A stretch of DNA of 64,000 bases from Candidatus Gastranaerophilales bacterium. GTDB taxonomy: Bacteria; Cyanobacteriota; Vampirovibrionia; Gastranaerophilales; Gastranaerophilaceae. The stretch spans positions 1 to 64,000 of the forward strand of contig CALURL010000012.1 in assembly GCA_944323155.1 (NCBI GenBank). The letters run 5' to 3'. This document shows positions 29,491-43,947 of this stretch, in pieces (the stretch's first letter is position 1; every line of letters starts with the position of its first letter). Position numbers and translations under genes: made by a program. Under the pieces are notes generated by a model that made no database searches, was not told where the DNA came from, and worked only from the letters and a program-made list of their open reading frames with translations.

Positions 29491-29586
29491 CCTGTAGAGG
29501 GTTTAACAAAAAAACGTTATATCCTATTGCGAAAAATAAAAACATATATTATAATAATAATATAGATAAGCAAAAGGAGTGGAAGC

Positions 29587-31934
29587 ATGAATATTAAGAA
29601 ATATGAAGTTCGGGGGGGGGGCAACCTCAAGGCTTAAATAGCAAGGGTTTCGCGCCTTTATTAACTCCTTCCCAAATTAGTAAACGTTTCGGTTTTACGC
29701 TAGCTGAAATGATGGTTGTAATGCTCATAATGAGTATAATCATGGCCGCCTTTGCGCCTGTTGTTACAACTCGAAACAAAAGTGGCGACAATTCCGAGCG
29801 TTGGCGCTGGGCAAGAAACAGATCTGACATTTATTATGGTATAGCAGACACACAGGTAGCCATGATAGGTCAGAATGAACGTGAAGCGACGGATCCTTCA
29901 AGTAAATTATTAATCAGTACCATAGAAGACGGCCAAAATCATATATTGTTTAAACATGCAACAAGTGCCGGTGCCGGCACGATTTTAGGTCGTTTATACA
30001 TGGATGACAAAGGTAATTATGGTTTAAGTAATTCTCAATTAAAAGGCGAACAAAATACTGCTTTTGGCTATAATACTTTAACCAACATAAGCCCGAGTGC
30101 CACGAGTGATTCCGGCAATAAAAATACCGCTATCGGTTATGAAGCATTAAAAAGCAATACTAGTGGCTATTATAATACAGCCGTAGGCGAATTAGCTTTA
30201 ACTGACAACACCAGCGGTTGGCGAAATGTCGCTATTGGTAATAGTGCAATGCGCAACAATCTGACCGGAGAACAGAATGTAGGATTGGGTGCAAATGCTA
30301 TAGAACAAAATCTAAGTGGCAGTGATAACACTGCAGTGGGACAAAGTTCTCTTGCATTAAACAAGACCGGCAATAACAATACCGCTGTTGGGCAAGCATC
30401 CTTGTATAGTAATGACAGCGGCTACAACAATGTAGCTGTCGGTAAACATGCTTTATTCAAGAACACTACCGGCTATTATAATGTAGCAGTAGGTTTATCT
30501 GCCTTATCCTCAGTAACAGACGGAGTTAATAATACAGCAGTAGGCTATGAAGCCTTAGCAGCTAATACAGCGAGTACGAACACGGCCGTTGGCGAAAGTG
30601 CCTTAAAAACAACTACGAGCGGAGACGGAAACTCAGCTTTAGGTAATTCGGCCTTACGTTTGAATACAACAGGGACTTATAATACCGCTTTAGGAGTTGA
30701 TTCTTTTTACAGTAATACAACTGGCAGCTATAATATTGGTATTGGTCATCAATCCGGTTATTATAATACCACAGGTTCAAATAATATTGCAATCGGACAT
30801 CAGGCTTTGCGAGATAATACAACCAGCAGTGAAAATACTGCTATTGGTTACCATGCCTTAGCTCAGACGACGAGCAGTAATAACGTGGCAATTGGTAATT
30901 ACTCCTCTCGAGATAATGTAAGTGGCAGCAAGAATACCTCTGTAGGATATGACAGTTTGCGAGATAATACCGGCAGTAATAATGTGGCGATTGGTTTTCG
31001 CGCAAACATGTCTGATGATGGCAGTACCGTCTCTTTATATAATACAACTGCTGTTGGAAGTTATGCAAAGGCTCTAGATTATTATTCAACCGCATTAGGT
31101 TCTAATGCAAAAGCTACAGGAAGCTATTCAACTGCATTAGGTTATAATGCAACAGCTGCAGGTAAATTTAATGTAGCACTGGGTTATAATGCATGTCAAT
31201 TTACTAAGGGATCTAATAAGATATGTATTGGTGCCTTTGCTGGCCCTCGCTCAGATTCAAGTTTTGCCAGTGAGTCAGATGATGAAGAGCGTATATTTAT
31301 TGGTGGCAGACCAAGGTCATTAAACCCTCTTGTAAAAATTTCTAAGGACGACGGTAATGCTACACTAGAGATACATAATATTTCCGGTAAAAACTCAAAA
31401 GTTATAATTAATGGTGATTTAATAATTCGTGGAAATTTAGCTTTTATTCCGACAGATATTTATGATCAGATAAGAACAGTCGGCACAGGTGGTGCTTCCG
31501 GTGATTCTCAGTTTCAAGGAAGTGGCGGACTAGGCATGAATAATGCTGAATATTTAGATAAAAATCATTTTTATACTGATGGACGTGTTCCTTCTGACCG
31601 CCGTCTGAAATACGTTGGCAGTGAAAATAAAAACGGCTTGGCTAAAATCCGTGAACTAAAGATATTTAATTATACCTTCAAGAAGGATAGATCTAAAACT
31701 CCACATGTTGGTGTCATTGCTCAGGATTTGCAGAAAGTCTTCCCAGATGCTGTAACCAAAGGTGAAGACGGTTTCTTGAGAATTCGTTTGGAAGATATGT
31801 TCTACGCAGCAATCAATGCAATAAAGGAACTTGCAACTCGCATGGATAGAAATGAGCAAAAAATAAAACAACTAGAACAAGAAAATAAAGAGTTAAAAGC
31901 TCGTCTAGAGCGTTTAGAAAAAGCATTGAAATAA
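29587..31934 (+). CDS. Pilin-like surface protein with YadA-type head repeats and S74 C-terminus, out of frame at a G10 tract
   Basis: As sequenced, translation from the ATG at 29587 (AGGAG site) reaches a stop at 29635 after ten G residues (29612-29621). With 11 or 8 G the frame runs on for about 782 residues. The joined leader ends SKRFG and is followed by FTLAEMMVVMLIM, a perfect class III prepilin cleavage site (G36/F37, Glu at +5). Then come about 30 short head repeats of the YadA/Hia kind (NTAVG, NNVAIG). The C-terminus is an intramolecular-chaperone-like domain (SDRRLKY, FNYTFKKD, HVGVIAQDLQKVFPDAV) and a coiled coil. It is probably exported by a type IV pilus-like system and trimeric. 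A 741-residue ORF from 29709 lacks the leader. Confidence 0.75.
29612..29621 (+). repeat. G10 homopolymer tract (candidate contingency tract)
   Basis: Ten consecutive G residues at codons 9-12 of the pilin-like gene, in an AT-rich genome. One inserted G or two lost G restore the reading frame. Confidence 0.8.
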
Positions 31935-41590: not shown

Positions 41591-43947
41591 TTACATTTTA
41601 AAGTCCGGGATAAATACCTGTGCATTTACATATAGGAATTTATTACCTTTCCAGGCTTGTTTTTTACCGTTGTATGTCTGGACGGCATCAGGGTTTGCCT
41701 GTTCAAATTGCGCTTTTGCTTTTTGAATATTTTCTTTTGTTGGGTCAATTCCTTGTTTGATTAATGCATTTTTAATTATTGCTGTATAGCCCATACCTTT
41801 TGGAACGGTGTAATTAGGTTTGTTTGTGTTATTTGTTGGTTTATCGTTATTTGCCTGTGCCTGCTGTCCGTTAGGCGGGGTAGTGTGTATGCCCTGTGAA
41901 GTGTTTGATTGACTGCTTTGTACCGGTTTGTTGTCTATTTGTGTTAAAGACAGGTGATACGCTGCTTTTTTGAAATCACTAATCGGCATTTCAAATGTAT
42001 CTTCTGGGCTCCATGGGTTTGAGAGGGTTACTGTTTTATCTGTGACTTTTAGTATGTTAAGCGCATGACCTCCGCCGCCAATTATTTTACCGTTTACTTC
42101 CTGACTTGAAACTTTCATGCCTGCTATTGCGGCATAGTTATCTACTTTGCCGTCTTTTGAATCTGTACGTAGTTTATTTAGAAGTTTATCTAAATTATCT
42201 CTTCTTCCGACTCCGTTTATGGATGTATACATTGCTTTTGCATTTACAGTATTATTTTCATCAGGTAAGTGCATGTTGAATTCAGAATCGACATAACAAG
42301 TAGGGGCATTCTTGTTATTTCCATTGAAAGATTCTGCTTGTTTGCCTGTAATTATAAATAATGCAGATTCTCCTTTGCCGCTGCTTAAATAGTCGCCTCT
42401 ATCAGTATAGGGTTCTAGACCCATATCAAGTCCTGCTATAAGGAGTGTATCTTTCTGTTTTATATTGTTATCTTTAATCGTATCCATTACTTCGCCTCTG
42501 TATTTTTCGTAGGCAAGTTCAAGGAGCAGAACATCTTTGTCTCCTGATGAGTACCTTTTACCTGCAAGTTTAGAGGCTTTTTCCAATTCTTCTGCTGTTA
42601 TTGTGTAATTTCCTGTCAGATAAACTTTATCTTCTGGAAGTTTATCAAGGTTTTTTCCGTCTTCTGTTGGAATTTTTGCTCCGCCTTCGCCGCTGATTAA
42701 GGTTTTGCGGGCTGTTGATACACCGGGGAAGGTAATTGTGTAAGATCCGTCATTGTTTTTCTTGACATTTTGCTGAAGAAGTTTTTCACCTGCTTCTGTC
42801 TCGCTTAAACTGTTTATTGCTGCAAGAAGGTAGCAGTCGCCTCTTCCTCCCTGATATGAGGTGTCAAAATGACCGTCGACTTTAGAGAAATCTTTTTTAT
42901 CAACAAGTTTTCCGTCTTTGTTGTATTCTTCGCGTCCTATTAAGATGCCGTTTTCATTAAATTGGTTTTTAATAACCTGTTTAATGGTTTTTCCGTCATT
43001 TTCATATGCTATTCTTTCAGAAGGCAGATAGCCAAGTCTGTTTTTGAGATTTGCCCCTTCGTAATGATCTTTATAAATGGCTCCTCTTCTGTAATAAGTT
43101 TTGTCCAGCGTTTTTAGAGTTTTGCCGTCTGCTTCGTAGGTTTGTATTGTCTGAGATTTTTTTCCTGCCTTGTCAATTTCATTTTTAGTTGCTTTAGAAA
43201 GTTTTCCATTTACATATTCATTTTTCTGATTCATAATAGTTTTGCCTGATGAATCTTTTTGTTCTGAACTCCTTGTTATGAGTTCATTATTTTCATTGTA
43301 TTCAAGTTTTTGAACTATTGTTGAGGTAATTTTGCCTTTAGTATCTTGTAACGTCTGGTTAATTATTGATGGTTTTTTATTTTCGCCGTAGGTGTAATCA
43401 TTTGTTAATGTTCCTGTGGCATTCTGTCTAACCATTTTTTCAAGCAGATGTCCTTTACCGAAGGTGTATGTTTGTTTTATTTCTTTACCGTCTTTATCTT
43501 TTCCGATTACTACTCTTGTTCCTGAACCGTCTGCATTAAAACTGTTTGTAATAGTTTCTCCGTTTTCTGTTGTTGTAGTCGTTTGAGAAGAACCGGTTGC
43601 TGCTCTTTGAACAATACTTTGAAACTGTTCAACAATTTTATCTGCGTTTTTTGACTGCGGGGTAAGACCAAAAATTTGCAAAAGTTCATTTTTATCAAGA
43701 ACTTTGTCTTTACCGGCATAGTCATTTAATACTTTTTTTAGTGTAACAATTTCTTTTTCGTCAATTGTACCGTCTTTTTTTGAATCGAAAAAAGAAAGAA
43801 AATCTTTAATATCATCTGTTACTGTTAAACCAGCCTGAAATACGCTCAGTGTAAGCTTTTTGCCTGTCGGGGGGGGGGTAATTCTTTTCCCAGCTCAATA
43901 GTTTTTTTGTCTAACCTTGTACCTAACATGTTAATGTCTTTTACCAT
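41591..43947 (-). CDS. EF-hand/calpain-like cysteine protease with LysM-like tail, out of frame at a G10 tract
   Basis: The true start is likely ATG 43947 (AAAGGAG site). On the minus strand a C10 run (43869-43878) throws the frame out at codon 24, and 11 or 8 would restore about 785 residues. As given, only a 696-residue ORF from 43681 is open. Domains: EF-hand-like DSKKDGTIDEKE and a second at KDKVLDKNE, just after the tract; MORN/YD-like repeats; a calpain-type protease with Cys (GGRGDCYLLAA, codon 42833-42835), His (GGGGHALNI, 42065-42067) and Asn (LSNPWS, 42017-42019); a Gln/Asn/Pro-rich linker; a LysM-like C-terminus (YTVPKGMGYTAIIKNAL). No Sec signal is seen. Ca2+ activation is an inference. 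Confidence 0.7.
43869..43878 (-). repeat. G10/C10 homopolymer tract (candidate contingency tract)
   Basis: Ten G on the plus strand (ten C in the gene) at codons 24-27 of the calpain-like gene. One more base, or two fewer, restores the frame. It has the same length and the same phase defect as the tract at 29612-29621. Confidence 0.8.

Follow-up and report, generated by a model that had tools for sequence, protein, structure and literature searches.

The prepilin gene and its G tract

Within the window (the whole 64,000-nucleotide stretch of DNA that was analysed), a prepilin-type gene on the forward strand is interrupted close to its 5′ end by a homopolymeric tract. A ribosome-binding site in the context AAAAGGAGTGGAAGC (29574–29586, +) precedes an ATG at 29587, from which 25 nt (29587–29611, +), encoding MNIKKYEV and contributing the first base of an arginine codon, lead up to a run of ten G (29612–29621, +); the same 25 nt are present in the copies on contigs C10 and C17. 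The genome has 91 tracts of this kind, this run included. By direct reading, the frame set by the ATG at 29587 yields MNIKKYEVRGGGNLKA and ends at a TAA stop after 16 codons, confirming the claim of the first-pass annotation that a start with a good ribosome site is thrown out of frame by the tract. With 11 G, the same frame reads MNIKKYEVRGGGQPQGLNSKGFAPLLTPSQISKRFG/FTLAEMMVVML and continues to a total of 782 codons, approximately 770 of which lie past the tract. Translation also upheld the proposal that 11 (or 8, and also 14) G would join this ATG to an RFG/FTLAE motif (29685–29708) and to the 741-residue protein behind it. In the open frame, the remainder of the leader (29622–29693, +) ends in RFG (29685–29693), the class III prepilin cleavage motif. 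Because the stretch between the tract and the motif lacks an in-frame ATG, GTG or TTG, the leader must start upstream of the tract, in line with the earlier suggestion that it would be made only by tract variants; the listed ORF (29709–31934) begins only downstream of the cleavage motif.

The predicted mature protein (29694–31934, +) comprises the hydrophobic pilin helix FTLAEMMVVML, YadA-head repeats, a Peptidase_S74 chaperone domain and a coiled coil. A match to PF07963 (1.6e-7, 29679–29750; FTLAEMMVVMLIMSIIMAAFAP) covers the G/F-x3-E motif and the hydrophobic N-terminal helix, while two copies of PF05658 (1.3e-7) and one match to PF13884 (8e-15) correspond to the head repeats and the C-terminal S74 chaperone, respectively. 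Judged by these sequence features, the product meets the criteria for a type IV pilin-like (class III prepilin) protein, with cleavage and filament assembly being inferred. Its domain content suggests a fibre or adhesin anchored via the pilin helix, and trimerisation is a further inference.

In shuffled sequence, runs of eight or more G are expected 0.12 times per 64 kb, versus two runs of ten in the window. The second tract (43869–43878, −) reads as C10 in the coding strand, follows an ATG at 43947 by 23 codons, and belongs to a gene (41594–43947, −) for a calpain-like protease (Peptidase_C2, below cut-off). Closed at C10 and open at C11, where more than 750 codons become readable, it is the same kind of switch in a different, non-prepilin gene class. 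Its G strand is the same as that of the first tract.

Tracts across the genome and the family

The assembly from which the window derives (G000; 1.79 Mb in 34 contigs, with the window on C12) contains 91 runs of at least nine G, where a few at most would be expected. The surroundings of nearly all 91 were taken, and both strands were translated with the tract as it stands and with one base removed or added. Over 399 kb of this genome, the tract strand carries 42 runs of five G, one of six and none of seven or eight, followed by three runs of nine, 71 of ten, 11 of eleven, two of twelve and one of fourteen; no run of eight or more C occurs on the tract strand in the same 399 kb. These stretches were picked for containing tracts, and the counts are hence not genome densities. 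The lengths are bimodal, and the long runs are therefore not the tail of a random distribution.

Seventy-four tracts sit inside the predicted cleaved leader of a prepilin-type gene (FTLAEVLITLGIIGVVAALTLP and variants). Their placement is regular: the tract lies exactly nine codons past the ATG in 50 of 73 tract genes, and mostly nine to ten codons past it, and a ribosome site with a GGAG, AGGA or GAGG core precedes the ATG in 70 of 73. As scored, 61 of the 74 tracts are one base short of open, four are one base beyond it and nine are open; one locus, L033, was scored from a nearer ATG and is open by frame reading, giving corrected states of 61, 3 and 10. Pooled over four genomes, 20 of 149 genes are open, versus the one third expected if all frames were equally likely (p = 4e-8, which is only a guide because related genes are not independent). 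The PF07963 profile identifies 84 prepilin-type N-termini in this genome, which also encodes a prepilin peptidase (PF01478, 1.2e-8, at C6:49789). The other switched genes mostly encode approximately 220–290 residues with a pilin N-terminus, and no additional domains were found above cut-off in the products searched (three against Pfam, two against NCBIfam). The first-pass annotation, concerned with one gene, was thus correct for that gene and missed a genome-wide system.

The leaders of L033, L046, L079, L084 and others often hold copies of short dispersed repeats (peptides ATHVDICTNVRE.. and LPMGEGARRAGEG..), as if a disposable leader tolerates insertions of repeat DNA.

Across 24 genomes of the family, the number of tracts (0–115) tracks the number of prepilins (6–112; Spearman 0.83), and tracts are rare in the other sampled families of the order. 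One genome from another family of the order (G027) has 88 prepilin-type N-termini and not a single G9 tract, and is a pilin expansion without the switch. In G001, from the same genus as the window, and G129, from another genus, ten G with 11 open is the rule. The genome G011, from a third genus, has 117 tracts of at least eight G, for which 13 is the usual length (14 of 23 tracts) and 12 is open; for both G129 and G011, reading was limited to the first 30 loci. The layout therefore recurs across genera with unrelated leaders and with another modal length. The shared flanks AC-G10-CA were considered as a possible mobile DNA element, an idea that was set aside because the tract keeps a constant position relative to the start codon and because the more distant flanking sequence varies from one genus to another.

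In G001, G129 and SIG32, the orthologues of the window gene carry tracts of 11, 10 and 9 G, respectively, every one of them one G short of open. Their leaders are 31–45% alike to that of the window gene and their mature starts 63–70% alike. The switch has been retained while its surroundings were rewritten, which points to selection for the switch itself. SIG32 (L089) was the single relative from the Cyanobacteriota/Melainabacteria group in a scan of named genomes, the remaining matches of which were only Bacteroidetes-type proteins with the repeats and S74 as common parts. From this one named relative and background knowledge, the window is inferred to come from an uncultured bacterium, probably of the Gastranaerophilales, a gut lineage related to cyanobacteria. 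The window leader had no match in viral contigs (exact search) or in phages (near search).

Tract length evolves faster than the flanking sequence. Thirteen of 20 within-genome gene pairs with at most nine differences per 90 flank bases differ in tract length, some pairs having members in common. The window gene (G10) and its open twin on contig C10 (G11) are separated by two flank differences and a pair in G129 (11 and 10) by one, and the tandem pair at L047 has tracts of 12 and 10. Contigs C17 and C10 share an overlap of exactly 77 nt whose last ten bases are the G10 run; in C10, an eleventh G follows. The simplest reading is that this overlap is a branch of the assembly graph at the tract, which suggests reads of more than one tract length, with repeat structure not excluded. 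A paralogue on C14 shares the mature start of the window gene and has an intact, non-repetitive, in-frame leader without a tract (MSYELRKAALKKGAAKFAERGFGKLAQKSG). Relatives with such leaders had been named in advance as grounds for refuting phase variation; this same-genome paralogue, which exists alongside the variable copies, is the only one, and the orthologues in three other genomes keep the tract.

Contigs end at a tract, or no more than a few bases from one, in the assemblies of G000 (C17, C10), G011 (C15, C31) and G016 (C3).

Orientation relative to the replication strand

Of 69 comparisons between adjacent tracts in the window's genome, 66 place both tracts on one strand, and nine tract genes that run in the opposite direction have poly-C in their coding strand. 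Whole-stretch GC skew was mixed, and skew at third codon positions was therefore used. On the G strand of the tract, this skew is +0.117 in co-directed genes and +0.138 in counter-directed genes, and it is positive at 73 of 79 loci in this genome, 30 of 30 in G001, 26 of 30 in G129 and only 16 of 27 in G011. In the first three genomes, the G-run thus lies on the G-rich strand regardless of gene direction, and that strand is presumably the leading one and thereby the lagging-strand template. The label rests on the usual skew rule because the origin was not located; dnaA, at C6:52476 within a stretch without a change of polarity, was uninformative in this respect.

In E. coli, most of the G-rich repeats tested were more mutable when the G-rich strand was the lagging-strand template, and one repeat behaved in the opposite way (PMC10530614). 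It is conceivable, though we hold the idea tentatively and rate it as somewhat short of probable, that selection or mutation has locked the tracts to the replication strand, with genes on the other strand evolving poly-C. The G-rich strand would thereby serve as lagging-strand template, and the rate of switching would be a tuned property of the genome, whose usual tract length would be set one base from open.

Proposed slipped-strand switching and its alternatives

We are confident, though short of certain, that the ten G form a slipped-strand (contingency) switch within the disposable leader of a surface protein of the prepilin type, and that approximately 74 prepilin genes share this design. 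The layout and the frames, their recurrence across the genome and the family, the length differences between copies and the position of the G strand on the G-skewed strand are all observed. At G10, translation would halt after 16 codons, leaving neither leader nor exported protein; one G gained at replication would restore the frame, and prepilin peptidase would then strip the leader, including its Gly stretch. Because the leader would be removed together with that stretch, the mature protein should be independent of the route by which the frame was restored. With about one in eight of the approximately 74 genes open in the assembly, and each gene predicted to be able to flip on alone, each cell line may display a small, changing subset of a large pilin or adhesin repertoire. 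Leader cleavage, surface display and a benefit to the bacterium are inferences.

The tracts satisfy three criteria for an SSR contingency locus, being longer than chance would allow, positioned to switch frame, and different in length among close copies within genomes (rather than among strains). Slipped-strand phase variation, as originally proposed for the window gene, is supported by the 74 prepilin genes of the same design, by the tract-length differences among near-identical copies and by the G11 twin, with reversible switching in living cells inferred. Recurrence, copy length differences and the other modal length elsewhere favour slipped-strand phase variation at the DNA level over programmed frameshifting or assembly error. 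The narrow range of lengths (71 of 88 runs at ten) speaks against slippage, as a wider spread would be expected if it were free and random, and a length-dependent equilibrium therefore has to be assumed. All tract lengths derive from consensus assemblies, without reads or same-species isolates.

Programmed frameshifting or RNA-polymerase slippage, in which a fixed G10 would bring some of the ribosomes (−1) or some transcripts (+1 G) into the open frame and set a low protein level with the DNA unchanged, is unlikely. Most tracts in G000, G001 and G129 do need the same correction (+1 nt), as such a device would require; in G011, however, where 13 G is usual and 12 open, the correction is the opposite one. 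A stop falls within six codons in the modal closed frame in 70/74, 27/27 and 23/25 cases (G000, G001 and G129, respectively) versus 15/74, 16/27 and 11/25 in the other closed frame. Early zero-frame stops are common at known frameshift sites, and those seen here could reflect frameshift design, selection for a tight OFF state or shared ancestry of the flanks. Lengths vary among near-identical copies, some genes are already open, and the poly-C tracts of other-strand genes obey the same rule, all of which count against frameshifting. Given the opposite direction in G011 and the variable copy lengths, the criterion of one conserved shift direction with a fixed slip site is not met.

Very improbable, in our view, is an assembly or sequencing artefact, whereby the real length would be 11 at most loci and the genes simply intact. 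Assemblies are known to be unreliable at homopolymers and several contigs end at or near tracts, where a break could also reflect repeat structure, but the modal length differs between assemblies (10 versus 13), lengths of 9–14 occur within one assembly, and nearly the same closed frame is found throughout the window's genome. A base-calling ceiling at ten is excluded because G11, G12 and G14 are present in the same assembly, and the 61 tracts at one base short of open, together with the 14 of 23 at G13 in G011, make assembly error hard to invoke. It is scarcely credible that the window copy is decaying, permanently silent and only a recombination donor for its twins, in the manner of pilin antigenic variation: there are close copies (C10 with G11, C14 without a tract) and downstream flanks are common to several loci (e.g. 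C29 and L029), but the 741-codon frame past the tract is intact, the ribosome site and start are retained, and a separate start and tract are present at every locus read.

Poly-G and poly-C contingency loci are established in Neisseria, Campylobacter and Helicobacter, with Neisseria pilC carrying poly-G in its signal-peptide region and opa carrying repeats in its leader. Slipped-strand switching as proposed here shares with these loci a 5′ homopolymer or short repeat, frame switching, surface-related genes and a removed leader. It differs in that almost all tracts lie in one gene class (prepilin-type), most of them one base from open, that the G strand follows the replication strand, and that the organism is not among the known pathogens. 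Switching of the reading frame by 5′ homopolymers is well established (PMC2831843; PMC11868660), and such tracts act as a general switch, as in Listeria inlA, where a poly-A tract gives a truncated 8-aa product (PMC2831843). In both cases a 5′ tract halts translation after a few codons and is reversible by one base, whereas the tracts described here are poly-G rather than poly-A, longer, and found at tens of loci with one common layout. For Neisseria meningitidis, phase variation has been predicted or validated in 115 genes (PMC5084427). The number of switched genes per genome is similar, but that phasome mixes repeat types and functions, whereas here a single repeat type and a single gene class predominate. 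Type IV pilin antigenic variation in Neisseria gonorrhoeae proceeds by gene conversion; it likewise draws on a repertoire of related pilin genes with G-rich DNA nearby, whereas in the present system every copy comes with a start, a ribosome site and a switch of its own, and there is no evidence of donor or expression loci (recombination was not examined).

No report of such a system was found in the literature on this lineage in connection with phase variation, pilins or homopolymers, with subscription papers mostly outside the scope of the search. As far as these searches go, the concentration on one gene class, the default of OFF by one base, the strand rule and the lineage are new, and the best reading is of a large pilin phasome, OFF by default and oriented to replication, in an organism other than the known pathogens. 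The family is not known for pathogens, and its genomes carry tens of switched pilin genes each. The set also amounts to a natural experiment in homopolymer slippage: a single genome holds dozens of tracts that agree in length and layout, they occur in genes of either strand, and their orientation to the replication strand is strict and varies from genus to genus.

In the window's genome, a few tracts belong to what appear by eye to be glycosyltransferase-like genes that are open as assembled (L034, C3:19078, n=14; L059, C6:70206, n=11; L087, C24:8251, n=10). Glycosyltransferases are classic targets of phase variation. Elsewhere in the window, integrase pieces, a virulence-protein/Fic-like gene and a primase/helicase-like pair, all recognised by eye between 57500 and 64000, suggest an integrated mobile element.
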